Below are positions 911 to 31,651 of a DNA stretch of 38,078 nt, in pieces (positions within the stretch are counted from its first letter, which is position 1; every line of letters begins with the position of its first letter). A program made the position numbers and the translations under genes. Origin of the DNA: a virus; IMG/VR virus record IMGVR_UViG_3300021437_000052, positions 1 through 38,078 of that record; one strand, given 5' to 3'. Under the pieces are notes generated by a model. It was not told the origin of the DNA and ran no database searches. It saw only the letters and a program-made list of their open reading frames with translations.

Positions 911-916
911 TGCCAT

Positions 917-1004: not shown

Positions 1005-1006
1005 AT

Positions 1007-6308: not shown

Positions 6309-6316
6309 CAAAATTA
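6309..6316 (-). promoter_or_regulatory. Promoter box for the fibre and lysis operon
   Basis: Leftward TAATTTTG followed by CA, 16 bases before the ATG at 6292. It resembles the boxes of the structural operons, but the 37-bp-upstream palindrome found at those is absent here. It is divergent to the chaperonin promoter. Confidence 0.5.
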
Positions 6317-6965: not shown

Positions 6966-7339
6966 TGGATGTACTACAAAACTTAATTGATGCCGCGAAA
7001 GGGGTATTAAATAATGATAATGCGATAGCTTTTATAGGACTTGAAGAAGCGATTGCTGATGCTGAAAAATTCCTAGATGTAAGGAATAAAATACCAACCC
7101 CTTTGTTTGACCGAGTGGTGATAAAACCATTTGAAGCCGAAACTAAACAAGGACTGATGATACTTCCTGTTAGCGATAATCAGCACTATGGAGTATTACT
7201 AAAAAAAGGTAAAGACGTTGAAGATGTTGGAGTGGACGAGGTTGTATTTTGGACAAATGAACTTGGCGAAACATTGAGTATTGATGGCGAGGACTTTATC
7301 CTTGCCCCTTTTCCCGAACTTAAAGCGGTTATACGATAG
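6965..7339 (+). CDS. GroES-like co-chaperonin with N-terminal extension
   Basis: A 124-residue protein whose residues 44-124 follow the GroES fold pattern. PTPLFDRVVIKP (44-55) corresponds to the first strand, ETKQGLMILP (59-68) to the mobile loop that docks on GroEL (compare GGIVL in E. coli), VGVDEVVFW (88-96) to the VGDxVxF strand, and IDGEDFILAPFPELKAVI to the final DGxxYxxxxxxDILAVI. Residues 1-43 form a helical extension not found in standard GroES of about 95 residues. It overlaps both neighbours and lies three genes upstream of GroEL. It should cap a chaperonin ring in the host cytoplasm. Confidence 0.8.
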   Translation: MDVLQNLIDAAKGVLNNDNAIAFIGLEEAIADAEKFLDVRNKIPTPLFDRVVIKPFEAETKQGLMILPVSDNQHYGVLLKKGKDVEDVGVDEVVFWTNELGETLSIDGEDFILAPFPELKAVIR

Positions 7340-8166: not shown

Positions 8167-8279
8167 TAAAAACACAAGTCAAAAAACTATCCAACCTTAA
8201 AAAGAGGATGCGTAGTGCCAAGAAAAGAAAACAATATTACAAACAAAATAATCTAATAATTAAATACAATAAAAAATGA
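8163..8279 (+). CDS. Very basic small protein, 38 aa
   Basis: Begins MIKTQVKKLSNLKKRM and contains about 15 Lys or Arg among 38 residues. It overlaps the previous stop (ATGA at 8163-8166) and the next start (ATGA at 8276-8279), so it is coupled on both sides. That double overlap supports it being translated. It might bind nucleic acid or be a remnant left by insertion of the downstream homing endonuclease. No family is recognised. Confidence 0.5.
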   Translation: MIKTQVKKLSNLKKRMRSAKKRKQYYKQNNLIIKYNKK

Positions 8280-8785
8280 AAACAATTCCGCTATCTAAAA
8301 GAGGCAAGCACAAAGATATGTATTTCGCCATAGTTGATGATGTGGATTATGATGCACTTATGAAATATAACTGGGGCGTGTGTAAAAATGGGAGAAATAT
8401 GTATGCTATCAGGACAGATATTAGTTCGGGCAAAAGAAAAACCACACAGATGCACAGGGATATATTAGGTGTTTCTGATGCCAACATTATAATAGACCAC
8501 AAAGACCACGATGGATTAAATAATCAGAGAAGTAATTTAAGGGAATGTACTAAGGAAGAAAACTCAAGGAATAGAATCCCAAGAAAAAATGCGTCTTCGT
8601 CTTATTTGGGAGTCAGTATTCAGACAAACAAAAACGGATATACGTTTTGGAGGGCAAAAATAACACACAATAAAAAGAAAATAAATATAGGAAGTTACAA
8701 GACAGAAAAAGAGGCGGCTGTCGCGTATAATGACATGGCTGTAAAACTACATAAAGAATTTGCTAATATAAATACAATAATTTAA
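8276..8785 (+). CDS. HNH homing endonuclease with AP2 DNA-binding domain
   Basis: A 169-residue free-standing endonuclease. The HNH part runs from MHR (59-61) through DHKDHDGLNNQRSNLR (74-89) and TKEENSRNR; the catalytic His and Asn of the beta-beta-alpha metal fold are present. A C-terminal AP2-type DNA-binding domain follows (about 109-165: YLGVSIQ, FWRAKI, IGSYKTEKEAAVAYN). Such enzymes nick or cut DNA to spread themselves. It separates the co-chaperonin genes from GroEL, suggesting a late insertion into the operon. No flanking intron or intein signals were seen. Confidence 0.85.
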   Translation: MKTIPLSKRGKHKDMYFAIVDDVDYDALMKYNWGVCKNGRNMYAIRTDISSGKRKTTQMHRDILGVSDANIIIDHKDHDGLNNQRSNLRECTKEENSRNRIPRKNASSSYLGVSIQTNKNGYTFWRAKITHNKKKINIGSYKTEKEAAVAYNDMAVKLHKEFANINTII

Positions 8786-16561: not shown

Positions 16562-18220
16562 TTATAATTTAGTTACCAATTTGCAAATCAACCTTGCGTG
16601 TGTTATGTCTGCTGTGTCTGAAAGCGTTGTTGTGTGTAAATTTACTGATACCGCATCCCCTGCTGTTAAAGATGCAAGTGTATTAATCACCATCTTTTGT
16701 ACAAATATTGACCCCGAAACATTCTGAACATCTATTGTTCTTATGTCGTCAGATGTAGTTATTCCTGTTCCCTCAATACTTATGTTTGTTGCAGGAGTTG
16801 AATTTTTGTACGCCCAATAATTTCCTATTAGTGTTTCCCCTCCTAAAACTTTAACGTCTGCCTCAAACGTCAATTCGTACATTCCTGTTGTAACAATATT
16901 CGCAACCCCGCTTAAAACGTTGTAGTCTTTATCGTTTGTGTCAATTCCTACTATCGAACTTTGGTATGCTGTTGCGTATTTAACGTTACCATTGACACTT
17001 AAATCGTATGTTGTTGTTCCCGAAGTTGTAGATGACGAAATATCTATGGAGTTATCAACACTTGTTACAACCGTAGATTTCCCATTTATTGTCCATGTAG
17101 TGTTTGCACCAACCGTTGAACTCGATAAGGCAATGTTATTCCCTGCTACCAATGTTGCGCCTAATATAGAATCTACCAAGTCAATAAAGGTTTGTGATAA
17201 TGTAAGTACATACGTCTTAGTTCCGCCTGAACTGCTTGAAGTAACACCTATGTACGAATTAGCCGAAATAATGTCATAAGCACTTACCAACCCTCCCAAT
17301 CCCACTACCTGCTGAAACTCGCCATCGCAACAAGTACAATCGCTGTTAAAACTGCCTAGCGCCTGTATCTGCGTAAGGTAGCCATTTATTAAATCTGAAT
17401 TACCGCAAGTCTGATTAGCCATTATCAAAGTCCAATATGACATTGCTAGTGCAAAATCTGTTGCTAATTGGCTATCGTTAGGGTTTGCTTGTCTTCGTGC
17501 CGCCATCTCATTTAATCCACACACCGTACTGCAATAACTTGTAGCATCCACAAATAAACTTTCACTTCCCCATACCGTATCTAATACCTTAAAATTAGAA
17601 GCATAGGCATAACTTAGATTTGTGATAACGCTTAACAATTCGGTTGTTGGTGAATAAAATGTATTGCTTGTTGTTGTCGCTGTTGTACCTACCGTTGGAG
17701 TTGGAGTTGATAATACACCGCCTATCACCATCGCCTCGTAGCTTATTGTCGCTGTTCTGTCAATAGTAGGAGTAATTGAATTTACTACATAAACCGTTTC
17801 GTCTTGTAATGTAATTAAAGGGCTAGGGGTGTAAACCGCAACCGTTCCGTTAATCTGAACAACAGGACTTGTGTATGTGAAATTAAATGTTTCGGTAGTG
17901 CTATAAAAAACCTCGTTATCATCATCCCACACCGTATATACTATTGTGTAAGTATCGTTTGTAGCTGTTCCGTCCGTATTCAAAGGCATAGCCATAGTTC
18001 GTATGCTATATCTGCTATCTGCGACATGAATATCATAATTTACAGCCGAAGGTACTCCCCCGTAATATACAACATCGCCATTAGATGCTGTTATATTAAA
18101 GCACCCATACATATATGTAGTAGGTAGCCCCTGCCCTGCATAATCTGTTGTGTCTGTTCCTTGAAATTGTTTAGTGCTTAGTCGTAAGTTCGCTATTTGC
18201 GAGAATGATACTGTTGCCAT
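16562..18220 (-). CDS. Virion structural protein with Cys-rich helical centre, 552 aa
   Basis: Three parts can be seen. Residues 1-140 are beta-rich and Ig-like; 195-300 are helical with several cysteines (YCSTVCGLNEM, NQTCGN, SDCTCCDGE); 300-552 is Ser/Thr-rich beta structure ending in a compact domain (YELTFEADVKVLGGETL) that resembles trimeric tip or TNF-like folds. It heads the leftward tail operon, so it may be an appendage or head fibre. Its promoter carries the 37-bp-upstream palindrome. The cysteine cluster may bind metal. Confidence 0.55.
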   Translation of the reverse strand: MATVSFSQIANLRLSTKQFQGTDTTDYAGQGLPTTYMYGCFNITASNGDVVYYGGVPSAVNYDIHVADSRYSIRTMAMPLNTDGTATNDTYTIVYTVWDDDNEVFYSTTETFNFTYTSPVVQINGTVAVYTPSPLITLQDETVYVVNSITPTIDRTATISYEAMVIGGVLSTPTPTVGTTATTTSNTFYSPTTELLSVITNLSYAYASNFKVLDTVWGSESLFVDATSYCSTVCGLNEMAARRQANPNDSQLATDFALAMSYWTLIMANQTCGNSDLINGYLTQIQALGSFNSDCTCCDGEFQQVVGLGGLVSAYDIISANSYIGVTSSSSGGTKTYVLTLSQTFIDLVDSILGATLVAGNNIALSSSTVGANTTWTINGKSTVVTSVDNSIDISSSTTSGTTTYDLSVNGNVKYATAYQSSIVGIDTNDKDYNVLSGVANIVTTGMYELTFEADVKVLGGETLIGNYWAYKNSTPATNISIEGTGITTSDDIRTIDVQNVSGSIFVQKMVINTLASLTAGDAVSVNLHTTTLSDTADITHARLICKLVTKL

Positions 18221-18236: not shown

Positions 18237-18292
18237 CAAAATTAATATCTATTCCCTCCTACAAACGTATTGTTTTAGAGTTAAATTATGTA
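18237..18292 (-). promoter_or_regulatory. Tail-operon promoter with upstream palindrome
   Basis: Leftward box TAATTTTG (18237-18244), then exactly 37 bp, then TAAATTATGTA (18282-18292), one base off the palindrome TACATTATGTA. A TTTG lies 17 bases upstream of the box. The ATG at 18220 is 16 bases downstream. Confidence 0.7.
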
Positions 18293-18313
18293 ATATCAAT
18301 CATATATTATTTT

Positions 18314-18348
18314 TTGCTTACTACTTACCCCTTATCCCCTTAATTTTG
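18314..18348 (+). promoter_or_regulatory. Portal promoter
   Basis: TTG at 18314-18316 within a T-run, 24 bases, TAATTTTG at 18341-18348 followed by CA. The palindrome TAAATTATGTA at 18282-18292 lies 48 bp upstream and is shared with the divergent tail operon. A TTG that would extend the portal frame lies inside this box and is therefore an unlikely start. Confidence 0.6.
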
Positions 18349-18366
18349 CAAATTAAAATACTATCT

Positions 18367-20868
18367 GTGGACGATAAAGACTTTTCATATCCAAATCCTC
18401 TAGCATCTAGGGCAGAAAAGAAAACAAACGCTTATGGGCTAGCATATGCGGAGTTCATATACGCGCAATACTACAAGGTGTCGCCTATACTAAACGAGCG
18501 TACAGCACGTTTTAAAAACAACTTAAAGCATGCCGAAGGATTGCAGTCTATTACAGATGTTCGTACTTTCTATAAAAATAATCAAGGCACTTCGCCATTA
18601 AACCTAGATGTAAGACCTGTAAACTACATATCTAAGATTGTTGATATTATCGTGTCGGTGCTTATGGAGCAACCATTCACCGTTGAATGTAATGCCATTG
18701 ACCCTCAAAGCAAGATTATTGAAAGCGAAATAAAGTCGCGTGTTTATGCCGCGATGCACCTTAAAAAAGTAAATGACAAGTTTAATATCGAAGGTCGCAC
18801 AGGAATATCAATAGTACCGAAAGGGCAACCAATACCCGAAACAGATGAGGAAGCCGAGTTATTCCTTGAACTGCAAGGTAAGGTTGGTTTATCCTTAGCA
18901 ATGGAAGAGGCGATACAATACGTTCTCGATAATAACGATTTTGACTACGAAGTAAAACGTAAGATACTTAGAAACCTTGTAGCGTGTAAAGGGGCGGCTA
19001 TCATGACCGACTACGATGAAAACTACAACATAACGATAACAGCACCCGAATTTTATGATGTTGTTTATCCTTACTCCAAATACGATACCTTTAAAAATAT
19101 TCCTTATGTCGGACTTGTTACATACATGACCATTGAGGAAATAGCATTAAAGGCAAAGAAAGAGGATGGCTCACCACGATATACCGAGAAAGAACTTGTA
19201 GAGATAGCAAAAGCATATCAAGGACAAAACTACAACAACCCTGCTTGGAATGGAACGTGGGGAATGAGTTATGAGGGATTCTATCAAAACTCTACCTTAA
19301 TTAAACCTTTCTATAACTTCAATATTCCTGTTCTTCGTTTTTGGTTTTTGGCTGTTTCGCAGGAAACGCTTGTCAAAACATCCAAACTAGATAAGGCAGG
19401 ACGTGAAAAGATTTACTACGATTGGAAAGCAAAAGGAGCATCAGAAGATAGCACCAATATCAAACAGAACATAGCGGTAAAAGAAAAGGAATGGAGATAT
19501 GAGGGGTATTGGATAATGGGGTCGAAATACCTGTTTAATTACAAGGAAAGCGATGATATTCCACGTGAAAAGATAAAGGGCGGATATAACCCTAAAACAA
19601 CTCTCCCTATCAAAATTATCGCTCCCGACATCTACGACATGGAGAATAAGTCCATTGTAGAGAAAGCAATACCTGCCGAAGAGCAATTAAACCTTATTGA
19701 ACAAAAGATACAGCAATGTGTTATTGAGTTCCGACCAAAAGGGTATGCGCTGAATACCGCAGTACTTGAAGAAATGAAAGCGGGTAAAGGGAAAGATGAA
19801 ACACTAGACCCTGTTGCGCTTCATGACCAATTTACTCAAACAGGAAAGATATTGTATTATGCGGTAATGCAGGATGGTGTTACTCCTGCTAACATAAACC
19901 CGATACAAGACCTGCCAAATGGCTTCGGGGAAGCCTTCGGTGAACTAATGAACTTGCGTATGATGTATATGCAACAGATTAGGGACGTAATGGGATTTTC
20001 AGAAAGTATGGACACCACTATGCCTAGTGCTGAAATGCCGATAGGAACACAGCAGATGGCAAGACAGGCAACTATGAACTCACTTATGGGAACATATAAA
20101 GCCGCAGTAAACTTATTGGAAAGGGGGTTACAGGACGTATCTTTAATGATACAAGACTGTATAGAAAAAGATAGGGATGGATTTATTGCTGCCATAGGAC
20201 AAACAGCAACAAGTGAAATAGAAATGTTCAAACAGCTTCCATTAGCAACTATTGGTGTAAATATAAGAATAGGAAGTAGCGAAGAGGAAAAAGCCAAACT
20301 GAACGAATGGATAGGACTTGATGTTAAAAACTCACTTATAGATAGCGGACAGGCAATAGAAGTACAAGATGCCTTACGTCAGAATGTTAAACTTGCAAAA
20401 GGACTTTTAAGAAAGTTTGTTGCTATGAACAAGAAGATGGCGCAAGACCAACAATTACAAATGGTACAGGCAAATGCACAGACACAACAGCAGTCAGCAC
20501 AGGTAGCAAGTCAGATGAAACAACAGGAGGTGCAGTTGGAAATACAGGGCAAAGGACAACTTATTCAGATGGAATATAGTGCTAAAGATATGTTTGCCGA
20601 GAAAGAGTTTCAACGTGCATACAAATTACAGCAACTTAAAAATCTTGGTTCTAATACAGACAGCGAAATTGCGGCAGGGGGCAAAGTGAATGTACAAGAA
20701 GCGGCTAACAGAGCAAAGATTGTATCATCACAAATAGAGCAGAACACTCAAATTACGAAAGCCCACATCGTGCATCACAGCGACCATAGTAAAATTGAGC
20801 ATCAGAAACAGGCAGATATAGAGTTGCTAGAACACGAACCGCCCGAAAAGAAAGAAGAGAAAGACTAA
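18367..20868 (+). CDS. Portal protein, about 833 aa
   Basis: Forms the dodecameric ring through which DNA enters and leaves the capsid. The GTG at 18367 (MDDKDFSYPNPLA) is preferred over a TTG at 18346, which lies in the promoter box. Portal features: the N-terminal YYKVSPILNERTARFKNNLKHAEG region, the VRPVNYISKIVDIIVSVLMEQPF wing entrance, a long helical stem and crown, and a C-terminal Gln- and Lys-rich coiled coil (after about residue 690) ending in HEPPEKKEEKD. Length suits large podovirus portals. Unlike all other head genes here it is on the plus strand, with its own promoter and terminator. Confidence 0.8.
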   Translation: MDDKDFSYPNPLASRAEKKTNAYGLAYAEFIYAQYYKVSPILNERTARFKNNLKHAEGLQSITDVRTFYKNNQGTSPLNLDVRPVNYISKIVDIIVSVLMEQPFTVECNAIDPQSKIIESEIKSRVYAAMHLKKVNDKFNIEGRTGISIVPKGQPIPETDEEAELFLELQGKVGLSLAMEEAIQYVLDNNDFDYEVKRKILRNLVACKGAAIMTDYDENYNITITAPEFYDVVYPYSKYDTFKNIPYVGLVTYMTIEEIALKAKKEDGSPRYTEKELVEIAKAYQGQNYNNPAWNGTWGMSYEGFYQNSTLIKPFYNFNIPVLRFWFLAVSQETLVKTSKLDKAGREKIYYDWKAKGASEDSTNIKQNIAVKEKEWRYEGYWIMGSKYLFNYKESDDIPREKIKGGYNPKTTLPIKIIAPDIYDMENKSIVEKAIPAEEQLNLIEQKIQQCVIEFRPKGYALNTAVLEEMKAGKGKDETLDPVALHDQFTQTGKILYYAVMQDGVTPANINPIQDLPNGFGEAFGELMNLRMMYMQQIRDVMGFSESMDTTMPSAEMPIGTQQMARQATMNSLMGTYKAAVNLLERGLQDVSLMIQDCIEKDRDGFIAAIGQTATSEIEMFKQLPLATIGVNIRIGSSEEEKAKLNEWIGLDVKNSLIDSGQAIEVQDALRQNVKLAKGLLRKFVAMNKKMAQDQQLQMVQANAQTQQQSAQVASQMKQQEVQLEIQGKGQLIQMEYSAKDMFAEKEFQRAYKLQQLKNLGSNTDSEIAAGGKVNVQEAANRAKIVSSQIEQNTQITKAHIVHHSDHSKIEHQKQADIELLEHEPPEKKEEKD

Positions 20869-20874
20869 ATAAAA

Positions 20875-20902
20875 AAGCCCTGCTACTTTTGTAACAGGGC
20901 TT
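20875..20902. terminator. Bidirectional terminator between portal and convergent gene
   Basis: AAGCCCTG-C-TAC pairs with GTA-A-CAGGGCTT around a TTTT loop, with one C-A mismatch. It is flanked by A6 on the left and a T-run on the right, so it can end transcription in both directions. It lies 6 bases after the portal stop and 24 before the stop of the leftward gene. Confidence 0.85.
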
Positions 20903-20925
20903 CTTTTTTAAAGTAAACCTTTATC

Positions 20926-22077
20926 TTAGTTTTTCAGCATATTAAAGAATTGCTCCTTAAATGCAGGTTCGGTATCTAAAGCATCTATCAGCTTCTTATA
21001 ACCCATAAACGTTCTCTCTTCAGGCGTTCCCTTACACCAATAAAAACCTCCTGCCTTTCCGAAACCTACCACAACACCTCTTAACTCACCGACCTTCAAC
21101 AACTCTTTTACATCAACAACTTCTTCGGTATCATTCGCTTTCGGCTCGATATTCGCTACTAGCTCTGCCTTTTTCTTTTCAGCAACCCCAAGTTTTTCTA
21201 ATATCGTCTGATACGTTTGTTCCGATACTCTTGTCTTATCCGTTCCTATCTTATCTACAAACAGATTGATAGGACTTGTGCCGATAGGTGCTTGACAAAT
21301 CAACTCGCCACTCTTAAAGTAAATAGCGTTTGTTGCCTCGTTATGTATAATAATACCCGCATCTCTCGCCTCCAACATATAATGTTTCTTAACAAGGATA
21401 GGATTGTTTATCTCCGTCATGAACTTAACAGGATTCTTACGTGCCAAGCCAAGCATTGTTTGTCTTAACATCAAAGGATTTACCGACTGCTTTTCGTACT
21501 GATTGTCGTCAAGTATCAGTCTTGCATAAGCACATACCAACGTAAAATTTTCGGGGCTTCTTACGAATAATTCCGCCTCAAAACGTGCATCATCCGCTTC
21601 AACAACTTTACTCATCATCGCCTCGTCATCACGTAAAAAGAAGAAAGGGGTAACACTCTTATCTCTGTCCTTTTTAGACATATTCCCATCATGTAACGCC
21701 AAGCACTTTAATATACCATCTTCCGTTCCTCTTACGTCAATATGTCCGTCAAGCATAAGCAAACGAGTTACCGTCTTTTTTACCTTGTCATCAGGCGTTT
21801 GTTTCCATTTGATTATTTCATGCTCCCCTGCACAATGTCTGATATGTGTCCTCTCTACTCTTTTACTTTCGGGATTATACATATTCGTTTCAAACTCTAA
21901 TTTGATAGGATAACTTATAGGATATAAGTTTCTTTTCATCTGCTTTCCGCTTTTGTCAGAGGCATACGAAGTGTCTTGGTTTTTCTTTATAAGCCAAAAC
22001 TGATAGATTTTGTTGGGGTCGAAACTCTGCTCGTTAAGTTCGGTTGCAGAGCCGAATTGGTGCTGTTTTTTTGCCAT
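20926..22077 (-). CDS. Hypothetical phage protein downstream of the capsid gene, 383 aa
   Basis: I do not recognise the family. The ATG at 22077 (MAKKQHQFGSATELN) is preferred; a TTG 33 bases upstream lies inside the promoter box. The protein is soluble, rich in Lys and Glu, with an N-terminal beta-rich half containing RHCAGEHEIIKW, a central helical region (LVCAYARLILDD), and an acidic linker at about 295-325 (ANIEPKANDTEEVVDVKELL). It has its own promoter with the palindrome and lies between capsid and portal genes. A head-associated or internal protein is possible by position only. Confidence 0.55.
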   Translation of the reverse strand: MAKKQHQFGSATELNEQSFDPNKIYQFWLIKKNQDTSYASDKSGKQMKRNLYPISYPIKLEFETNMYNPESKRVERTHIRHCAGEHEIIKWKQTPDDKVKKTVTRLLMLDGHIDVRGTEDGILKCLALHDGNMSKKDRDKSVTPFFFLRDDEAMMSKVVEADDARFEAELFVRSPENFTLVCAYARLILDDNQYEKQSVNPLMLRQTMLGLARKNPVKFMTEINNPILVKKHYMLEARDAGIIIHNEATNAIYFKSGELICQAPIGTSPINLFVDKIGTDKTRVSEQTYQTILEKLGVAEKKKAELVANIEPKANDTEEVVDVKELLKVGELRGVVVGFGKAGGFYWCKGTPEERTFMGYKKLIDALDTEPAFKEQFFNMLKN

Positions 22078-22107
22078 TTGATTGTATTTTATTAAGATTA
22101 ATTGATG

Positions 22108-22163
22108 CAAAAGTACTCACTATGTCTTTATAAGTTATATCACAAAAGTCGATACATTATGTT
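22108..22163 (-). promoter_or_regulatory. Promoter with upstream palindrome for the 383-residue gene
   Basis: Leftward TACTTTTG (22108-22115), exactly 37 bp, then TACATTATGTT (22153-22163), one base off the palindrome. It lies between the capsid-gene terminator and the ATG at 22077. Confidence 0.7.
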
Positions 22164-22210
22164 ATGGAAATTTATTAACATTTGTAATGTTCGTGATGCT
22201 ATACAAAAGA

Positions 22211-22238
22211 AAACGCCCCACATTTCTGCGAGGCGTTT
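22211..22238 (-). terminator. Terminator after the major capsid gene
   Basis: On the minus strand AAACGCCTC pairs with GGGGCGTTT (9 pairs including one T-G) around a 10-base loop, followed by TCTTTTG. It lies 24 bases after the capsid-protein stop and separates this operon from the next promoter. Confidence 0.8.
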
Positions 22239-22262
22239 CTTGTTTGTAGGGCTACTACTTAA

Positions 22263-23696
22263 TTAGGATTTAAATACTTTAAACCATCTGTTTGGAGCAA
22301 AAAATTCTGGTCCAAACGTGCATTGAAAGTTGATTTGTTGATGGTCAACTGCTTCTGTGTACACTCCGTTTGCGCCACCTGTGAAATACTCTTCCCACTG
22401 ACGAGAATAACCGTCAGTTGATTTTTGGTAGTGAATAACGAAAGAAGGCAAGTTTTTAGTTTGCGACATATCATCCCAATTAACAGACTTGTCTGATTTA
22501 TCCATTGGAATACCAAGTGCCATATATAAGTATGGTTGACCTACTGCTCCAAGTAATTTAGGATATACGAACAAGTCGTAGTGTTTTTGGTGGAAAGTAC
22601 GACCTGACAAGCTGAAAGAGTTAAACATAAAGTCCACCCAATCATTAGCAGTACCTGTACCACCATAGTTCCATGCACCATTTTTCATTTCAGAACGAAT
22701 CCAACGAGAGTTGTAGTTCATTACATTAGAAGAAGAATAAAGCACGTATTCAGATGCGCCCATGTTAGGGTCAAGCTGTGAAGTAGATAAGTCCTCCCAA
22801 TCCTGTTCAGTCAAGAAAGAAACAAGGTTGTAAGGTAGAGCGTTACCATAGCTTTCGATGAAAGGAATCATACCTTCAAATGATGTTTGAGTTGAAGGTG
22901 CTGATGCGCTTCCTGATGGTAATTCTGTGAAAGTAGTGTTAGTAGTTTTGGTGTCGGTCAATAAACGTACTTCGCGCTCGTTTTTCAAACGCATAGACTC
23001 GTTCATTTGTGCCACGTAGAACCATTGGTCTTTACCGTCAACAACAATCCAAAGTTTCTCTGCTCTCGCATTACCTGATATGTTGTAAGAACCGTTCATG
23101 TTAGAAAGGTTGTTAAAATACCAAATTAATTGAGTGTCGCGAGAAGGATTGATTGTAGCGTATTCCCCAACCTGATTACCTGCTATGATAACAACGTCTG
23201 TTGTTGCAACCGCAGGGATGTTAGTACCAAGTTTAGTAGGGTAAACAGTTACGCTGTTTCCACTAACTGCTGTTACGATAGCTCTTGTTCCGTCAGGGAA
23301 TAAAAGCACCTGATTAACATATACAGGAACAACAGTTGTCTGATAGTTCGAGTAGTAAGGAGCATCAACGGTGTTGTCAGCAGGGAAAGTGTAGTCATAA
23401 GAAGATGACAACGTTAAAGTTACTGCCGCGTTTGTAGAACCAGCCGAGTGTGAACTGAACTGAAGAACCTCATGTAAGAAATTCTCTTCGCTATGACGAA
23501 ATTCTAAGTTTTGGATATATGAAATACCACCCATTTTTTGGGTAAGTCCGTTCATATTAAAGTCCTGTTTTCCGTAACGTTTAACCAAGTCAGGATAAAC
23601 TTCGGGAGCCAACAGTAAGCTCTCTGATACTTGTTGGCTTCTATACCAATTTTCAAGTGTAGGGGTCTGCGATATTGCAGGAGTTGTGTATGCCAT
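22263..23696 (-). CDS. Major capsid protein candidate, 477 aa
   Basis: A 477-residue protein rich in aromatic and small polar residues, with no membrane segment. It begins MAYTTPAISQTPTLENWYRS, followed by a helical N-arm (SQQVSESLLLAPEVYPDLVKRYG), a beta-rich centre with PVYVNQVLLFPDGTRAIV, and a long mixed C-terminal region. It follows the scaffold-like gene by 54 bases and ends at a strong terminator, the usual scaffold-to-capsid order. Codon choice is less varied than in its neighbours, with evenly spread preferred codons, as expected for a very highly expressed protein. HK97-type features cannot be proven by eye. Confidence 0.65.
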   Translation of the reverse strand: MAYTTPAISQTPTLENWYRSQQVSESLLLAPEVYPDLVKRYGKQDFNMNGLTQKMGGISYIQNLEFRHSEENFLHEVLQFSSHSAGSTNAAVTLTLSSSYDYTFPADNTVDAPYYSNYQTTVVPVYVNQVLLFPDGTRAIVTAVSGNSVTVYPTKLGTNIPAVATTDVVIIAGNQVGEYATINPSRDTQLIWYFNNLSNMNGSYNISGNARAEKLWIVVDGKDQWFYVAQMNESMRLKNEREVRLLTDTKTTNTTFTELPSGSASAPSTQTSFEGMIPFIESYGNALPYNLVSFLTEQDWEDLSTSQLDPNMGASEYVLYSSSNVMNYNSRWIRSEMKNGAWNYGGTGTANDWVDFMFNSFSLSGRTFHQKHYDLFVYPKLLGAVGQPYLYMALGIPMDKSDKSVNWDDMSQTKNLPSFVIHYQKSTDGYSRQWEEYFTGGANGVYTEAVDHQQINFQCTFGPEFFAPNRWFKVFKS

Positions 23697-23750
23697 AATA
23701 ATTTAAGTTTTTGTGTTTTTAATAATTGTTTTAGCCAATTAAATTTAATT

Positions 23751-24926
23751 CTATCTATTAGGCGGAACGTATGGCAATCCTTTCCTTTGTGTTGCTGATG
23801 GATTAGGTTTCCCTTTATCCCTCGTATCGCTCATTTTTTTATCTGTCTTTGCCGCCAACTCATAAGCAAACTTAATTTGGTCAACTGCCAACTTTTCAGC
23901 CGCTTTGTTTGCTGTAAGCCCTTTCAAAATAAAATTATAAACGATATTATGCTTTTCATCAGCCGTTTGAGCGTCTTTTGTTAATTCGTTCCAAATGGTG
24001 TTCAGATTTGTAAATAGCTTATCTGCTACCTGCTTATCCTCTTTGCTTACCTCATAATTAAATGGCGCAATCTCTACTGGCACGTCATTTATCTGTATTG
24101 GTAAGTCCTTTGAAAACTCGTATTTTACGCTGTTATTCTGACTTATAGCTTTTTTTACTCCTTCTTCCCATTGTTTAGATAACTCTTCAGCTTCTTTCTT
24201 TTGGGCTTGTTCTGCTTTTGTTTTCGCCTCAATCTGTTCGGGCGTTTCGGGCTTCACAAGTTTATATTCATCCTGCCTTTTAATCAAATCTTTCTGCTCA
24301 TTCGCCCAATCCCTTTTGATTTTTATTTCGGCAATCTCCTTAATCTCTCTTTGTTCATCTGTCAAATCCTCATCTTCTATTCCTGCGAACTGATTAAGGT
24401 TGTATTTTGTTTTTAACTCAAACTGAATTTCCTTTTCATCCCAATCGGGGTGTGATACTCTTAAACTTTCAGCCAATCCTTTTAGGGGGTCAGCAATTTT
24501 TGTGTAGTCTTTATTTAAGAACGCTATTGTGTTCTCGTCAAAGTCTTTCCCTTGTTCAAGCAGTTGCTTGTAGGTTTTCAGTTTTGGATTTTTTTCAAGG
24601 AACTCTGTTTCTTTCTTTAACGCTTCCAACTGCGTTTCATATTCTTTAACCTTTGCTTCATATTCAGAAGTTTTAGTTTTATACGTCTTAACAACATCGG
24701 GAGTATCCTCTCCGAAGTCGGTTTTCCACTCATCGGTTTCAAAGTACTTTTTACCTGTTGGTGCTTGTACTTCTGTTGCCCCCTCATCTGTTGTGGGCTT
24801 GGCATCTGTTACCTGTGTTTCACTTGGTTTTGCCGTTTCAACCCTTTCGCCATTCGGATTAACGTATGGTAATGATGGGCGTTCTGTTTCTGTTACTTCT
24901 GTTGTTATTCCTGCTACTTCTGACAT
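23751..24926 (-). CDS. Scaffold protein candidate, 391 aa
   Basis: A highly charged, Glu/Lys/Gln/Thr-rich protein lacking hydrophobic core segments. Residues 1-55 are disordered and acidic, 75-135 form a coiled coil (YKTKTSEYEAKVKEYETQLE), and 210-255 another helical stretch (TKAEQAQKKEAEELSKQWEE). The tail is basic and proline-rich (ending YVPPNR). This composition and a position directly before the capsid gene match phage scaffolding proteins. Its promoter carries the perfect 11-bp palindrome. Alternatively it is a minor head protein. Confidence 0.6.
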   Translation of the reverse strand: MSEVAGITTEVTETERPSLPYVNPNGERVETAKPSETQVTDAKPTTDEGATEVQAPTGKKYFETDEWKTDFGEDTPDVVKTYKTKTSEYEAKVKEYETQLEALKKETEFLEKNPKLKTYKQLLEQGKDFDENTIAFLNKDYTKIADPLKGLAESLRVSHPDWDEKEIQFELKTKYNLNQFAGIEDEDLTDEQREIKEIAEIKIKRDWANEQKDLIKRQDEYKLVKPETPEQIEAKTKAEQAQKKEAEELSKQWEEGVKKAISQNNSVKYEFSKDLPIQINDVPVEIAPFNYEVSKEDKQVADKLFTNLNTIWNELTKDAQTADEKHNIVYNFILKGLTANKAAEKLAVDQIKFAYELAAKTDKKMSDTRDKGKPNPSATQRKGLPYVPPNR

Positions 24927-24954
24927 TTGATTAAAAGATTAAATTATATTGGTG

Positions 24955-25010
24955 CAAAAATAAGGGGTATAATTATGCAATGCTACGTGTAACGAGTGAT
25001 ACATTATGTA
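24955..25010 (-). promoter_or_regulatory. Scaffold and capsid promoter with palindrome
   Basis: Leftward TATTTTTG (24955-24962) followed by CA and preceded by CCCCT, exactly 37 bp, then the perfect palindrome TACATTATGTA (25000-25010). The palindrome lies between the terminase stop and the promoter. No good TTG at the usual -33 distance, which suggests activator dependence. Confidence 0.75.
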
Positions 25011-25018
25011 ATGATAAT

Positions 25019-27103
25019 CTATCTGCTGTTTTGTTTTATCTTGTATTGATGAAAATAGTTGTGGGTAGGGCGTTGTTTTCTCTTTACCTCAAGCACCGCT
25101 TCAGCACCAACCATCCCAACCATCGAAGATACGGACAAGTCAAATGCTCCCCACTTATCTACGTCAAACGCTAACCAATCTTTTAGAGTGTTATTAAATG
25201 GCATATATCCCATGTCGCCCGTTTTCTCGTTATATCCGCAATGATTAGTTATCCAACTTGCCATATACTCAACCAACTGATTTCGTGTCTTCCCCTCTGT
25301 GTTGGCAAGTCCTCCATCTATATTCTTTGTAAGACTATCAATATAATCATCATTTGTCATGGACGGAGAAGGCAATATGTATTTGTGATAATCTCTGTTT
25401 CGGAAATAATCATTACAATTCTTGATGTTTCTTTCGGGCATTAAACCCCAACCAAAATACACACAACACATTATCATGTCTTCATATACTAATAGAGGGT
25501 CTTTCGGGCGACACCAATATTCGGAAATGAAATGCTTGTGTTTTATCGGGTGCATTACATCGTACTTCTTTACTCCATGCGAAGCCGCTTTTGATTGTCT
25601 TTTAGGGTCAACGGTATTTACTGCCGCGAAAGGGTCTAATGTGAACAATCCTATATGATTGTTTGCGGGGGATTTATACCTGTCGCGACCTAATATCCAT
25701 TGGTTACGTTGCTGTTCGGGCGGAAACCAAGAGAAACACCATCTCGACAGAGGGTTATCCTCTGAAGACTTTACCCATTCGACTTGACCATCTCTTACCC
25801 CATTCCTCCATTGGAAATAACCAAATTCTAATGTATTTTCTATGACATGAATATCGTTATGTTCTATCTGCTGATATATCTTTTCTAAATCCCAAACAAC
25901 TTTTTCGTTGGCAGGATTAGCAAACATATCGTCTTCGGTTAAAGGAAACTGCCTCTTAAACTCGTAATACCCTATTGTGTCGCCTTTATCTTTTCTTGCT
26001 TTTAACTCATCTAATATCCATTGTCTAGCTCCCTTTTTTATCAACTTGCCATCAATACCCATGATAGGTTCGTCAGGGGTTTCTATAACTGATGCACCGT
26101 ATTCATCCACGAATCCCTCCATTCCATCACAACTAGGAACAAAGTATCGCCATAGTCCGCTTAATGTACGCCCGTTCTCTGTGAGTTGCGAATGCAGTGA
26201 ATTATCCCAAATGGACTTAAATCCCTCTCCCCCTTTCTTTGTTTCGTTTACCGTTGAGCCGAAAAACATTTTCCCTATTATCGTGCCTCCAAGCACCAAG
26301 CACGTCCTTCCTATACTAAACCATTTTTCAACTGATACATCAACGGGGAATTTACCACTTTCATCAACCGCCACAATCTTCAATTTCATACCATCGTATG
26401 CGTTCTCTTTTGTGTTTCGCCAATCAATGTAAGTATTTAACGAAATCTCTTTTACCGTCTTTCTGTTTTTATATGACACTCGCTTTTGAGGCGTTTTAAA
26501 AACCAATTCCTTTTTTACATCTTCCGCACTTGCTACCTGTGGCTTAAAGAAGTCTGGCAATTCGATAAATCCATGAACGAGTTTATTAAACATCTCCTTT
26601 GCATCTTCTCCTGTTTTGGATATGATTCCGTATTTTGAATTGAATGTTTTTCTTGCTCTGTTTAGTATGATAGAATCCACCCTGTAAGAATAACCATCCC
26701 TCCTTAACTTTCCGTATGCCTGTCCTAAACACTCCTCATTGGTATCGCATAGATGCCAATGGTAAAACCAACGCCTATCTCTATCGCGGTAATCAGGATA
26801 ACCGCTATCAATCATAAACCAATTAAGATAAAAATAATGGTCGCCTGTTATATATGTAGGAACACCTTTTATGAATATCCAAATTCCATCAGTACACTTT
26901 CTGTCCTCTTCCTCTGCAAACCTTAATTGTTCATCTGATGATAAGTCCTCCCAATTTTCAGGCAGTTCTGTTCTCTTCCACTTTTGGTCTTTGGTTTGCA
27001 GTTCAAAGTTTTTTATTTGCTTAACAGGCGGCTGTTTGGGTAGAGTATATATCAACCCTTTGTATAAATCTATTACCCCACCAAACTGATTATTGTTTTC
27101 CAT
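25019..27103 (-). CDS. terL: Terminase large subunit, 694 aa
   Basis: The DNA-packaging motor: N-terminal ATPase and C-terminal RNase H-like nuclease. The N-terminal region has GVPTYITGDHYFYLNW and DRDRRWFYHWH, characteristic of crAss-like terminases. A degenerate Walker A appears as KLRRDGYSYR (about 131-140), and Walker B as LKIVAVDESGKF with the catalytic Asp-Glu near 245. The nuclease part has FTLDPFAAV (first Asp), LLVYEDMIM (middle acidic) and DKWGAFDLSVSS (last Asp). It overlaps the upstream gene by 14 bases. Family call is confident; the headful or site-specific cutting mode is not decidable. Confidence 0.88.
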   Translation of the reverse strand: MENNNQFGGVIDLYKGLIYTLPKQPPVKQIKNFELQTKDQKWKRTELPENWEDLSSDEQLRFAEEEDRKCTDGIWIFIKGVPTYITGDHYFYLNWFMIDSGYPDYRDRDRRWFYHWHLCDTNEECLGQAYGKLRRDGYSYRVDSIILNRARKTFNSKYGIISKTGEDAKEMFNKLVHGFIELPDFFKPQVASAEDVKKELVFKTPQKRVSYKNRKTVKEISLNTYIDWRNTKENAYDGMKLKIVAVDESGKFPVDVSVEKWFSIGRTCLVLGGTIIGKMFFGSTVNETKKGGEGFKSIWDNSLHSQLTENGRTLSGLWRYFVPSCDGMEGFVDEYGASVIETPDEPIMGIDGKLIKKGARQWILDELKARKDKGDTIGYYEFKRQFPLTEDDMFANPANEKVVWDLEKIYQQIEHNDIHVIENTLEFGYFQWRNGVRDGQVEWVKSSEDNPLSRWCFSWFPPEQQRNQWILGRDRYKSPANNHIGLFTLDPFAAVNTVDPKRQSKAASHGVKKYDVMHPIKHKHFISEYWCRPKDPLLVYEDMIMCCVYFGWGLMPERNIKNCNDYFRNRDYHKYILPSPSMTNDDYIDSLTKNIDGGLANTEGKTRNQLVEYMASWITNHCGYNEKTGDMGYMPFNNTLKDWLAFDVDKWGAFDLSVSSMVGMVGAEAVLEVKRKQRPTHNYFHQYKIKQNSR

Positions 27104-27452
27104 TCTTATTGTTTAGGGCAATCTTTTCGGCAATACCTAAGGTTTCGTGCTTTATTTTTTCGTTAAGTTCTTTTTGCTGTTCAGGCGACATCTTATTCCT
27201 TATCCATTCCAATAATTCTAGGTAAGGTATTTTCTCTGTTTGGTATTTATGTGCCATCTCGAATAATGGCTTGTTTTCAACGGTAAACATTCTATCACTT
27301 TCTTCATTTATACTTCTGTCGGTTGCATTAATGAAAGTAAGAGTTGATAGGTATGTGTTTACTAATGGGCTTTCTTTGAATTGTCTTAGTTCCGTTTCAA
27401 GGTCGGATATACGCACGAGCGCATCTTTTAGCGATGTGATTTTGTCGGACAT
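27090..27452 (-). CDS. Possible terminase small subunit, 120 aa
   Basis: A 120-residue helical protein with an N-terminal coiled coil (LKDALVRISDLETELRQFKE), a middle region, and a second helical part (LLEWIRNKMSPEQQKELNEKI). It directly precedes and overlaps the large terminase gene, the usual place of the small subunit, which recognises the packaging site. No helix-turn-helix was clearly identified, so the call rests on position, size and helical content. It lies after a terminator-like hairpin, so its expression may depend on read-through. Confidence 0.45.
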   Translation of the reverse strand: MSDKITSLKDALVRISDLETELRQFKESPLVNTYLSTLTFINATDRSINEESDRMFTVENKPLFEMAHKYQTEKIPYLELLEWIRNKMSPEQQKELNEKIKHETLGIAEKIALNNKNGKQ

Positions 27453-27477
27453 TTGATTAAATTATATTAAATTAAAA

Positions 27478-27495
27478 GGGGGATTTTACTCCCCC
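27478..27495 (-). terminator. Intercistronic terminator or attenuator before the terminase genes
   Basis: On the minus strand GGGGG, an 8-base loop, CCCCC, then TTTTAATTT. It lies between the beta-rich virion protein (stop at 27519) and the small-terminase candidate (start 27452). No TAnnTTTG box follows it, so some transcripts must read through, giving unequal expression. Confidence 0.7.
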
Positions 27496-27518
27496 TATCT
27501 TTTATTGCTTCCTATCCT

Positions 27519-28580
27519 TTAAAGGGCATTTATTAAGGTCTGAACCTGTGCGGCTGTTTCCTGTACATCTTTTCGTACAAACGTTGAGTTGCTAGGGTCA
27601 TTGTATAGTATCGCACAACCTGTTACTGCACCCTCAACAAATGTTGCTGTTAATGTAGCGTTGTTTCCACCGCCTGTTGTACTTACAGGGTTGCTTGGAG
27701 GTGCTGAATACGCTCCTGCATTTGCTACCGCTACCGTCTTTGCACCCATTACCAAAGTGAATGTTGCGCCTGTTCCTGTACCTCCTGTTACGGTGTCATT
27801 TGTTAATGTAGGATTTACGGTATAATCACCACGAGTTGTAAGAGTGAATGTTGTTATCGCTCCCCCTGTTACCGTATCTACGGTTATAGTAGCTTTCGTT
27901 CCTGTTCCTGTCGCTAATGTTAGCACATCACCTGCGGTATATCCTGTTCCGTTTGCTGTTTTTGTTGCTGTTGCTACCTCTGTATGCGTTACAAGCATTG
28001 TTGCTTGTGTTCCGTATGTTCCGCCCGATAAAGTCAATGTTGTTGTTCCTGCTACCATTGTAGTACCTCTCGATGCTACCGTTGCACTTTCAAGCACCTC
28101 GCCTGTTTCTGCATGAGCATTTATTTCAGCACAACGTAATGAATTTAGGTAATATACCGTATTCGATTCGCTATCTGTTGCAGGGAATGTTTTTCCTGTG
28201 GTTGCTGATACAACCGAAGCGGCATCATTTAATACAAATTTTTGTGATACCGAGCCATCATTCACCCAATAGTACATTGTGCTTCCTGTGTCGGTGTTAT
28301 CATTTATTGTTAATACGTTCTGATTGTTAAAACAAGTATCTTTTGTTCCTCCAAGTTCATCAACAACGGTAGATATAAATAAGATACCTGTTGATAGTGC
28401 CTGTAAAGCCGAAGTACTTATAGTAAGTGTCTGCGGTTTAGCATTTACTCCTGTTGAGGAAACGTAGGTTAATACTGCCTTGCTGTCCGAGTTATCGTAA
28501 GCATAGATTATTTGGTTTGCATCAAGTTTGAACGCATCCCCGTTTGAGTTGGTTAGTGATATACTAAGATTTGCTGCCAT
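27519..28580 (-). CDS. Beta-rich virion protein, decoration or head-fibre type, 353 aa
   Basis: Residues 1-150 form a mixed N-terminal part (MAANLSISLTNSNGDAFKLD). Residues 190-330 are Gly/Thr/Val repeats such as GTGYTAGDVLTLATGTGTKA and GGTGTGATFTLVMG, typical of beta structure in phage surface proteins. A helical C-terminus (ETAAQVQTLINAL) follows. It is the first gene before the terminase pair and is driven by a palindrome-type promoter. Likely exposed on the virion; the exact position (head or tail) is uncertain. Confidence 0.6.
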   Translation of the reverse strand: MAANLSISLTNSNGDAFKLDANQIIYAYDNSDSKAVLTYVSSTGVNAKPQTLTISTSALQALSTGILFISTVVDELGGTKDTCFNNQNVLTINDNTDTGSTMYYWVNDGSVSQKFVLNDAASVVSATTGKTFPATDSESNTVYYLNSLRCAEINAHAETGEVLESATVASRGTTMVAGTTTLTLSGGTYGTQATMLVTHTEVATATKTANGTGYTAGDVLTLATGTGTKATITVDTVTGGAITTFTLTTRGDYTVNPTLTNDTVTGGTGTGATFTLVMGAKTVAVANAGAYSAPPSNPVSTTGGGNNATLTATFVEGAVTGCAILYNDPSNSTFVRKDVQETAAQVQTLINAL

Positions 28581-28604
28581 TGTTATGAGGTTTTAAATTT
28601 TTTA

Positions 28605-28660
28605 CAAAAATAGATAACATAACAAAGGTAAGTATCGGTTAAAGTACACTACATTATGTA
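28605..28660 (-). promoter_or_regulatory. Promoter with palindrome for the virion-protein and terminase operon
   Basis: Leftward TATTTTTG (28605-28612), exactly 37 bp, perfect palindrome TACATTATGTA (28650-28660). The same palindrome lies 47 bp upstream of the divergent rightward box at 28708. Confidence 0.75.
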
Positions 28661-28680
28661 ATACTAATGTATATTGTTTT

Positions 28681-28715
28681 TTGGCTATCAGTTAGAGTTA
28701 TATCCCCTATTTTTG
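28681..28715 (+). promoter_or_regulatory. Promoter of the ejection-protein operon
   Basis: TTG at 28681-28683 in a T-run, 24 bases, TATTTTTG at 28708-28715 followed by CA and preceded by CCCC. This is the same geometry as the portal promoter. A partial second motif, CTAATGTA, ends 36 bp upstream of the box. Confidence 0.65.
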
Positions 28716-28743: not shown

Positions 28744-29451
28744 ATGGCAGATATGACACAGCAGATTAGTAATTGGGCAGGAGGCGGAGCATCGGTTACT
28801 GAAGGAGCAGTACAACTAGGACTAGGGTTGATAAAGAAAAGGCAAGCTGACAAGATGTATCACCAATACGACATCCCTCCCGAAATACAACAAAATCTCA
28901 ATCAGGCAAACATAGAGGCTTTGAAAGGATTACCCCTAGAACAGAAACAAGAGTACCTTAATAACTTACAGAAGTCAAATGCTTATTCATTGAGTTCATT
29001 GGGTGATTTGAATGCAGGAATAAGAGGTGTTGCAGGAGCAAATGAGCAATTTAATCAAGGGTACGATAAATTACTAGGAGCTGATAGTGCCGCACGAATG
29101 GCTAATCAAGACAAGTTGTATGGATTGCGAAACGAAATGGCGGATTACAAAGATAAATCTTGGCAGTTTAATGTAAAAAATCCGTATGATGAAAAGAGAT
29201 TAGAGGGCTTAGCTTTACAAGGCGCAGGAATGCAGAATATGTCGCAGGGTTTTCAGCAAGGAAATACAGGAGGAAATCCGTATGGTAGTACATCGGAGCA
29301 AAATCGAGCAAAATCACAACAACCCCTCCCTCCACAATATAATGATGCAGGTAATTTTTATAACTATAACCCGTATAGCAATAAAGGCGGGGCGGTAAAC
29401 CAAACTCCATACGATTATGGGTATGGTTTAGATAGAACTGTAACAGCGTAA
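28744..29451 (+). CDS. Ejection / internal virion protein candidate, 235 aa
   Basis: The N-terminus (SNWAGGGASVTEGAVQLGLGL) is Gly-rich and weakly amphipathic, followed by a Gln/Asn-rich helical region (PPEIQQNLNQANIEALKGLP) and a disordered Gly/Asn/Tyr/Gln tail. This matches small internal proteins of podoviruses (T7 gp14 position and composition) that are ejected and inserted into the host envelope. It is the first gene of the rightward block ending in a giant protein, the same order as gp14-gp15-gp16. The assignment is by composition and order. Confidence 0.55.
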   Translation: MADMTQQISNWAGGGASVTEGAVQLGLGLIKKRQADKMYHQYDIPPEIQQNLNQANIEALKGLPLEQKQEYLNNLQKSNAYSLSSLGDLNAGIRGVAGANEQFNQGYDKLLGADSAARMANQDKLYGLRNEMADYKDKSWQFNVKNPYDEKRLEGLALQGAGMQNMSQGFQQGNTGGNPYGSTSEQNRAKSQQPLPPQYNDAGNFYNYNPYSNKGGAVNQTPYDYGYGLDRTVTA

Positions 29452-29453
29452 AT

Positions 29454-30965
29454 ATGTATAATAACACATCTATCCCAGCTTCCGAACTTTACGGCATAGG
29501 CAAAGGGCTTGCACAGGTAAACGACCCTAAGATTTGGCTTGAACAACAAAGGATGGGCGAGGAACGCGCGCAAAGGCAAGAGGCAGAAAAAGAACGTGCC
29601 GCAAAAGCTATTCACGAAGATATGCTTTCTAGGTTGAGCAAAATTAAGGACGGGGCAATACGAACAGAAGACCAACCCGAAGCGGCACAACGAATTAATG
29701 ATTATAAAAAATTAGTTCAAGGGATATATGCAAATGCAAAAGGGGGGCAATTAGGAGTAGATGACGAATTAAAATTGCAACAAGGGCTTAATGGTCTTAA
29801 TACGTGGACTGATAATGCATCAAAACAAGCGCAGTTGATACATCAAGTTGGGGCAGAATACGATAAGAATGATGTTCGTTATGGTGGCTCGTGGAACAAA
29901 GATGAGTTTTTAGATGCCGCAACAAAACCGATGAGTGAATGGAAAAATCAAGACATAACATCTTATTTGCCTATTCCAAAAAAAGATTTAGACCAAGAGT
30001 TTTTAAAAGCCAATAAAGACTACTTCAATAGCAATAATATTGCAAGTGTCGCGTACGACCCATCAGGGCAATTAAAAATAACGACAATTACTAATCCCGA
30101 TTTGGTAGAGCAAAGAAAAAATCAGTTTTTTAATGACCCAGATGTACAGGTGCAATTACACATGGCATCCACAAAATTACCTAAAACATCGGAGTTTTCA
30201 GATAAAGGAGGTGTGCCACAGGGATTAAAGACAAGAGAAGATTATTTACAGCAAGTAGGAACACCCGATGAGTTTTTTGATTATAGAAAACTATTTAATG
30301 ATAAGGTTACTTATGGTGGAATAAAAAAGGAATCGTTCAAACAACCACCACCGCCTTCCTCAATAGGAGGTGCTACATTCTCTCAAACACTACCTGTATC
30401 ACATGAAGTAGATGCTAATGGTAATGATATTTATACCACTAAGTTTGGCGACAAAGGAGTATTAGTTCCTTTTGATGGAAAGAATGAGTTGGTTACAAAC
30501 GCTACATACAATACTATTACAGACCCTAAAACGGGTAAAAAGGTAGTGGTTGGAGGAACAGCAACAGTAGCAAAAAATTCAGATGAGAACGATAAGTTGT
30601 TGGCAAAGTTTAATGAGGACGAGAAAAAGATACAGGAAAGAATTGATAAGTACGATGCCGAAAATCAGCCATTACCAACAGATAAGGAAGAATATCATTT
30701 AGCATACAGAAATAAGATGATGGACTTCGCAAAAGAAAAGCGAGAGTTGTATAATAATTACAAAAAGGCATTACAGGTAACTACAAAACCATTAGACGAA
30801 ACACAGGCGAAGGACTTGTTTACTTCTACTCATAAGGGTAATGTAAATCAGATGGTGAATGGTGTTCCTTTGTCGGGAGTTAAGGTAGTGGATAATAGAG
30901 CAAAGGCAACCTCTGAAGCACCGAAAGGGGAGGCGAAACCTAAAAAGGTTATAAAAGGATTTTAA
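29454..30965 (+). CDS. Internal virion / ejection protein candidate, 503 aa
   Basis: A hydrophilic, largely helical 503-residue protein. Residues 15-70 form a charged coiled coil (WLEQQRMGEERAQRQEAEKE), 75-260 are mixed, and 370-440 another coiled coil (DKLLAKFNEDEKKIQERIDK). The C-terminus is Lys-rich (KPKKVIKGF). It is 2 bases downstream of the previous ejection candidate and was probably next to the giant gene before an endonuclease gene was inserted between them. The role is inferred from the order. Confidence 0.5.
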   Translation: MYNNTSIPASELYGIGKGLAQVNDPKIWLEQQRMGEERAQRQEAEKERAAKAIHEDMLSRLSKIKDGAIRTEDQPEAAQRINDYKKLVQGIYANAKGGQLGVDDELKLQQGLNGLNTWTDNASKQAQLIHQVGAEYDKNDVRYGGSWNKDEFLDAATKPMSEWKNQDITSYLPIPKKDLDQEFLKANKDYFNSNNIASVAYDPSGQLKITTITNPDLVEQRKNQFFNDPDVQVQLHMASTKLPKTSEFSDKGGVPQGLKTREDYLQQVGTPDEFFDYRKLFNDKVTYGGIKKESFKQPPPPSSIGGATFSQTLPVSHEVDANGNDIYTTKFGDKGVLVPFDGKNELVTNATYNTITDPKTGKKVVVGGTATVAKNSDENDKLLAKFNEDEKKIQERIDKYDAENQPLPTDKEEYHLAYRNKMMDFAKEKRELYNNYKKALQVTTKPLDETQAKDLFTSTHKGNVNQMVNGVPLSGVKVVDNRAKATSEAPKGEAKPKKVIKGF

Positions 30966-30970
30966 AATAA

Positions 30971-31651
30971 ATGAAAAAACACTTGCATATATTAATTGTA
31001 TTTTTTACTTTTGTGCCATCATTAATAGCAGTTGCCGATGCTAATAAAAACAATATTAAAAACGATTACTCCTTAGTAGCTCGGCAAGGCGAACAGGGGC
31101 AATCGTTTTCTTTTTCTATGCAAAAAATATATTTATATGCAGGACGTGGTAGCCAAAGTAAGCCAACCGAAAATTATGTTTTAGTAGATGATAGAGATTA
31201 CGCATATCTCAATCAATTCAAATGGGGATTAATGAAATTGTATCATTGCGATAACCCTATTACTTATGCGCGAAGATACGAAACTATTGATGGTAAATAT
31301 ACCGCAATATTAATGCACAGAGTTATTCTTGGGCTAAAGGGAAGATGGGAGCATGGCGACCATATCAACGGAAACACAATGGATAATACAAGAGATAATT
31401 TGCGTATTGCCACTCACACAGAGAACATGAGAAACAGAAGACAATTAGTAAAGAAGGGGACTTCGAGATATAAGGGCGTTTCTTTTCATTCAAGTAAGTA
31501 TAACACTATAAGGTATTGGGTAGCGCATATAAAAGTTGATGAGGGGGATAAAAGAGCAAAATTTGACAACGAAATCAGTGCAGCTCGTCAGTATAACCTG
31601 TGGGCGATTCAATACAGAGGACAGTTTGCTAATATTAATATATTACCGTAA
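30971..31651 (+). CDS. HNH-AP2 homing endonuclease with an unusual signal-like N-terminus
   Basis: HNH part at about 115-156 (MHRVILG, GDHINGNTMDNTRDNLR, TENMRNRR) and AP2 part at about 165-222 (SRYKGVSFH, YWVAHIKV, AARQYNLWAIQYRG). The enzyme proper probably begins near Met50 at 31118 (MQKIYLYAGRGS). Residues 1-23 (MKKHLHILIVFFTFVPSLIA...) look like a signal peptide, followed by a short polar stretch, unrelated to the other endonuclease here. It shares TAATG with the giant gene. The insertion site is between two virion genes. The N-terminus may be a captured gene fragment, or translation may start at Met50. Confidence 0.8.
   Translation: MKKHLHILIVFFTFVPSLIAVADANKNNIKNDYSLVARQGEQGQSFSFSMQKIYLYAGRGSQSKPTENYVLVDDRDYAYLNQFKWGLMKLYHCDNPITYARRYETIDGKYTAILMHRVILGLKGRWEHGDHINGNTMDNTRDNLRIATHTENMRNRRQLVKKGTSRYKGVSFHSSKYNTIRYWVAHIKVDEGDKRAKFDNEISAARQYNLWAIQYRGQFANINILP

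Follow-up and report, generated by a model that had tools for sequence, protein, structure and literature searches.

A fixed-distance element before the structural operons of an uncultured Bacteroidota phage, and different elements before the orthologous operons of its relatives

The window analyzed here is the whole of IMG/VR record IMGVR_UViG_3300021437_000052 (38,078 bases) from an uncultured Bacteroidota phage, a linear 38-kb fragment with most of the early region outside it. The 11-mer TACATTATGTA is present in this window in four intergenic copies, two exact and two with one mismatch, and exactly 37 nucleotides (nt) separate each copy from a leftward TAnTTTTG box (4/4). A first-pass annotation of the sequence had reported these four copies and this spacing, and both were confirmed. 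We have very little doubt that the element is genuine. That annotation also invoked a sequence-specific regulator. Judged from sequence comparison, it is well supported that such a regulator controls the structural promoters, since the spacing is fixed, the element is restricted to structural operons, and different elements stand before the orthologous operons of relatives; activation is the best fit to the position of the site. With moderate confidence we propose that a late-gene regulator, an activator, binds the element near -54/-65 and is Ogr-like in its working without being Ogr.

A motif search of the whole window found no further copy within one mismatch, and 14 further 11-mers with two mismatches. 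With 6 strand-counted matches, where shuffled sequence has 1.7 on average and 5 at most, the copy number by itself is only moderately unusual. Being only about 3.5 times expectation, this number would be compatible with a chance alignment picked by eye in A+T-rich sequence. However, the 11-mer is found within one mismatch at the same offset in 4 out of 13 upstream regions, while 1000 dinucleotide-shuffled promoter sets reached a maximum of 2 and none came near the observed arrangement (0/1000). It is the alignment with promoters, more than the copy number, that marks the element as non-random. When the four copies were aligned, we observed an invariant core with a one-sided tail, TAcATTATGTaAT-N3-AAT, which reads TACATTATGTAATN3AAT. 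Five invariant flanking bases lie beyond the palindrome, on one side only and with the same polarity in 4/4 copies. They lay outside the original observation, which further reduces coincidence to a nearly negligible explanation. Because the invariant flank is always on the same side, the element is polar, about 19 bp long and built on a palindromic core, and its orientation is identical relative to all four leftward promoters. The earlier description as an 11-bp palindrome therefore fits the two perfect copies; the other two are imperfect, and conservation extends asymmetrically beyond the 11 bases. A hairpin or terminator role was rejected (5-bp arms, no U-tract), and an Rfam search of the window gave no matches.

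All six structural boxes in Table 1 read TAnTTTTG, fitting the -7 consensus TAnnTTTG of the Bacteroidota primary sigma factor (PMC7366714). The first-pass annotation had considered leftward promoters only and missed two of the six: the rightward promoters of the portal gene and of the inner-virion operon, 48 and 47 nt from the element. In both divergent gaps the rightward box is 10-11 nt beyond the leftward 37, approximately one helical turn. The four leftward structural operons named in that annotation do carry the element, but the leftward tail-fibre/lysis operon (box 6309-6316) lacks it. In the relative L211, too, the orthologous tail-fibre gene has no element before it. The assignment of genes required correction, as the scaffold-capsid operon follows the box at 24962, the terminase operon that at 28612, and the gene described as unknown head that at 22115. 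The six structural promoters have no TTTG at 19-23 nt; TTTG is found at N17 or N24 only, or is absent. At the chaperonin (6381) and 903 (+) promoters, which lack the element, TTG is found at N21. The earlier argument from weak or misplaced -33 elements is thus correct as to the missing TTTG, but it is thin, since no -33 motif at all could be defined in a global survey of Flavobacterium johnsoniae (PMC7366714).

The element is mostly A+T and lies upstream of the promoter core, as would an UP-like element contacted by RNA polymerase directly, with no regulator. This we consider improbable: an UP element needs A/T tracts rather than an exact 13-19-base sequence with fixed G and C, and other A+T-rich promoters of the window phage have no such element. 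Four near-identical intergenic copies, together with the resemblance of the two divergent gaps (copies 1 and 4) on their rightward side, could also be repeats that serve DNA packaging, replication or structure, the distance to the box being a by-product of duplicated promoter cassettes. The four leftward spacers between element and box share little sequence, however, and recent duplication fails to explain an identical 37 nt. Relatives also have unrelated elements at their promoters, and we regard this explanation as very improbable.

Next, we compared the structural promoters of relatives found by TerL searches (TerL identity 70% for L005, 66% for L006, 50-55% for L007 and L207-L211). The window's element is absent from the promoters seen in L005, L006, L007 and L207-L211. 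In L006, L007, L210 and L211, the sequence TTTAGAATNATTCTAAA or near copies of it precede the portal gene, the scaffold-capsid operon, the gene for the 552-amino-acid (aa) tail-operon protein or the inner-virion operon, at 6-10 or 15-16 nt from the -7 box, and protein comparison shows these operons to be orthologs of the window operons. In L207, L208 and L209 a GTTACA-like sequence stands 32-33 nt before the portal, scaffold and decoration/TerL promoters; at one further promoter of this group (6172) GTTACA is one turn closer, at 23 nt. In the TerL tree the phages with TTTAGAATNATTCTAAA are basal and two changes of element type are needed, the minimum. From this sequence evidence TTTAGAATNATTCTAAA looks ancestral and the window's element derived, and the latter therefore probably replaced the former. 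An additional palindrome, TTATATCTATTTGATATAA, overlaps the portal -7 box of L005 (3114-3132) and is possibly a fourth operator type, a single promoter being visible. On the G009 contig (L274), a small protein encoded at 7371-7787, divergent from the portal gene, resembles by eye only the C-terminal DNA-binding domain of DnaA.

The sequence TTTAGAATNATTCTAAA is not confined to these few phages. Placed 5-18 nt before TAnnTTTG, it was found in 114 IMG/VR stretches, compared to 9 for a matched control palindrome, with spacing peaks at 15 and 8 nt. Among 72 downstream proteins in Bacteroidota genomes, unselected by function, there were four TonB receptors, three AraC-type regulators and three cytochromes, and two each of FUR-family, FeoA, AhpC-type and DUF4856 proteins; hand-picked host examples include feoAB, feoA, FUR-family genes, TonB receptors and AhpC-type genes. 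On the basis of these host genes we consider TTTAGAATNATTCTAAA to be the phylum's box for Fur or PerR, either of the two being possible. In viral contigs, the first gene after this Fur-type box encodes phrog_5824 (function unknown) in 12 of 67 cases and a portal protein in at least 10; major tail protein and small terminase genes are also found downstream of it. Only 2 out of 148 sampled genomes have the box together with a -7 box, because the exact consensus plus box is a strict demand. The arrangement is also seen at some host-genome loci that resemble prophages. The window itself has no Fur-type box within 3 mismatches. No FUR domain was found on the fragments of relatives, consistent with use of the Fur protein of the host.

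We therefore weighed activation against repression. In the mechanism that we favor, a transcription regulator would recognize TAcATTATGTaAT-N3-AAT specifically and, in the late phase of infection, jointly turn on the operons for head, portal, packaging and main tail. The six Bacteroidota-type promoters have no canonical -33 element. With the -7 box taken to begin at approximately -11, the protein would have its centre some 54 nt upstream of the start at leftward promoters and 64-65 nt at rightward ones, on nearly the same helix face, from where it could recruit host RNA polymerase. We infer the protein binding, activation rather than repression and the late timing; the protein could come from the phage or from the host. 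The main rival is that the element is the operator of a host or phage repressor, which silences the structural genes early and is titrated by replication to give late expression, the role being played by host Fur in the relatives. This rival is made more plausible by the relatives, whose structural promoters carry the Fur/PerR-type box at spacings similar to those before the host iron and AhpC-type genes listed above and whose fragments gave no FUR gene. The window's element, however, does not cover the core promoter but stands farther upstream, 37-48 nt ahead of the -7 box, and conserved spacing with helical phase is typical of activators. An activator is favored because the site is upstream of the core, the spacing is fixed and the offset is one turn; repressor titration appears unlikely, although by a smaller degree than the explanations above.

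Several points weigh against activation by a dedicated late regulator. The rightward spacing is known from two promoters only, and the -54/-65 positions assume that the -7 boxes are used as promoters. No HTH_3, FUR or Ogr_Delta domain was found in the window, a fragment from which the early region is largely missing. The Fur-type box, probably ancestral, covers the promoter core, the usual place of a repressor, and the window's element could act negatively too. The single promoter visible in the sister L005 carries neither element, and no second phage with the window's element was found. Two observations touch on the search for a regulator. The L210 contig encodes a small HTH_3 protein at 22384-22686, which is a lead only. 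On the G008 contig (L273) an exact Fur-type box at about 23470, in the early region, lies less than about 800 nt from the HTH_3 gene 22384-22686 and has no -7 box at the usual distance.

The closest known parallel is the late-promoter system of P2 and 186 (Ogr/B, and Delta of P4). The P2 Ogr activator site is centred near -55. The two systems are alike in that structural promoters, four late ones in P2, have one dyad element at a fixed distance, and in its sharing by divergent promoters. In P2 the dyad is TGT-N12-ACA, or TGTTGT-N13-ACAACA (PMC3931495, PMC5694545); in the P2-like phage Smp131 one element serves the divergent promoters PP'/PO' (PMC3931495), and the late promoters of the P2-like phage phiRSY1 have no sigma-70-type promoter sequence (PMC5694545). 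The window's element is TACAT-N-ATGTA with an asymmetric tail, unlike TGT-N12-ACA, and the host RNA polymerase and promoter type differ. No match to the zinc-finger family Ogr_Delta (PF04606) was found in the window or in five relatives, all of them fragments. By sequence, then, the system would work like the Ogr late promoters but falls outside that family. The Fur/PerR-box promoters of L006, L007, L210 and L211 are similar in that a palindrome precedes the -7 box of orthologous operons at a nearly constant position; the sequence differs, and their box ends 6-16 nt from the -7 box compared to 37-48 nt in the window. In the GTTACA promoters of the sister lineage L207/L208/L209, too, a short element stands a constant 32-33 nt from the structural -7 box, but it is a single half-site or direct repeat and nearer to the box. 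BlaI, MecI and CopY operators have the form TACA-N2-TGTA. The TACA...TGTA half-sites of the element resemble them, but where a copy retains both half-sites the spacer is 3 bases (TACA-TTA-TGTA).

The exact element looks private to the window phage within the IMG/VR and Bacteroidota collections scanned. An IMG/VR scan for the palindrome with a box at 23-52 nt gave no peak at 37 nt, and for the extended element no IMG/VR contig among the matches listed had two copies. In 396 Bacteroidota genomes the element plus box gave 5 matches against about 10 for the reversed control, at or below chance, with no host regulon. Both results are expected if the regulator is lineage-specific. IMG/VR TerL scans for element-bearing relatives reached 70% TerL identity at the nearest and found none with the element, nor did a capsid scan and a GTDB TerL scan. 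The structural promoters of phi46:3, phi38:1, elemoA and the Manatee Spring phage showed no common spaced element; a resemblance at the gp117 promoter of phi46:3 (TTACATAATACATTAG) was dropped since its spacing is not constant. In the open-access literature we found no late-promoter element, late regulator or Fur-controlled structural genes for Bacteroidota phages, a weak indication of absence.

What is new in the element is its sequence; other phages are known to have a common late-promoter element bound by a dedicated regulator. More surprising are the exchange of operators before orthologous operons and a Fur-type box on phage structural operons. It is possible, and proposed here tentatively, that a broad set of Bacteroidota phages run their structural operons via the host's Fur/PerR-type box and that some lineages, including the window phage, exchanged this switch for another regulator at an activator-type position, the genes being unchanged. 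If this is true, Fur/PerR control would tie virion production to the iron or redox state, or to how many operator copies are present as replication proceeds. The analysis provides a concrete late-operator candidate in one lineage and orthologous structural operons with exchangeable operators, one matching the host iron/peroxide box. It opens the question of virion timing in phages of a phylum dominant in the gut and the sea, and of its control by host metal state.

Table 1. Copies of the element, -7 boxes and genes in the window, and operator positions on contigs of relatives.
Feature	Position	Strand	Remarks
Element copy 1	18282..18300	+	TAAATTATGTAATATCAAT; 11-mer 18282-18292 TAAATTATGTA; common to divergent tail and portal promoters
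Element copy 2	22153..22171	+	TACATTATGTTATGGAAAT; 11-mer 22153-22163 TACATTATGTT; leftward promoter of 394/383-aa head-region gene only
Element copy 3	25000..25018	+	TACATTATGTAATGATAAT; 11-mer 25000-25010 TACATTATGTA; scaffold-major capsid promoter; directly adjoins terL stop
Element copy 4	28650..28668	+	TACATTATGTAATACTAAT; 11-mer 28650-28660 TACATTATGTA; common to divergent decoration-terL and inner-virion operon promoters
-7 box TAATTTTG	18237..18244	-	leftward operon 18220 to 10656; 37 nt from copy 1
-7 box TACTTTTG	22108..22115	-	gene with ATG at 22077; 37 nt from copy 2
-7 box TATTTTTG	24955..24962	-	scaffold and major capsid operon; 37 nt from copy 3
-7 box TATTTTTG	28605..28612	-	operon of decoration gene, small open reading frame (ORF) and terL; 37 nt from copy 4
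-7 box TAATTTTG	18341..18348	+	portal gene (ATG 18367); 48 nt from copy 1
-7 box TATTTTTG	28708..28715	+	rightward operon 28744-38076 (window end); 47 nt from copy 4
552-aa virion protein	16562..18220	-	first of leftward operon; L007 ortholog (31%) lies after Fur-type box
Portal protein	18367..20868	+	phrog_6547
Probable major capsid protein	22263..23696	-	phrog_13704 (virion structural protein); major-capsid role suggested by size and place after scaffold gene
Putative scaffold protein	23751..24926	-	first of capsid operon; role suggested by position; no family match
Terminase large subunit (TerL)	25019..27103	-	phrog_6681
Head decoration-like protein	27519..28580	-	phrog_9703, weak match
First gene of rightward virion operon	28744..29451	+	L007 ortholog (37%) with Fur-type box upstream of its operon
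Fur-type boxes, L006	3459, 6111, 8643		
Fur-type boxes, L007 contig (L204/L205)	13379, 21938, 27206, 33273		
Fur-type boxes, L210 contig	783, 12938, 15600		
Fur-type box, L211 contig	7095		
GTTACA promoters, G007 contig	9648, 10384, 13052, 15620		third element type (L207, L208, L209)

Further virion structural proteins among the controlled genes match phrog_14543, phrog_13977 and phrog_14478. By its homologous TerL and portal proteins the phage is related, distantly, to the Pachyviridae/Pervagoviridae/Elemovirus-related podoviruses. Identity to Cellulophaga phages phi46:3 and phi38:1 and to the Flavobacterium elemo phages is 27-36% for TerL and 22-25% for the portal protein, which places these phages far from the window phage. 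A GroES-like protein (6965-7339) and a GroEL chaperonin (8796-10487, +) are encoded by the window phage, as they are by related phages. An HNH endonuclease gene (8276-8785, +, phrog_99) lies within the chaperonin operon and a second HNH-like ORF, recognized by eye only, between virion genes (30971-31651, +); both are probably mobile. At 903-1013 (+), the promoter TTG-N21-TATCTTTG faces a non-coding stretch that had no Rfam match and folds no better than shuffles. It is possible that this stretch is a small RNA; two hairpins are predicted in it, the second terminator-like with a U run.

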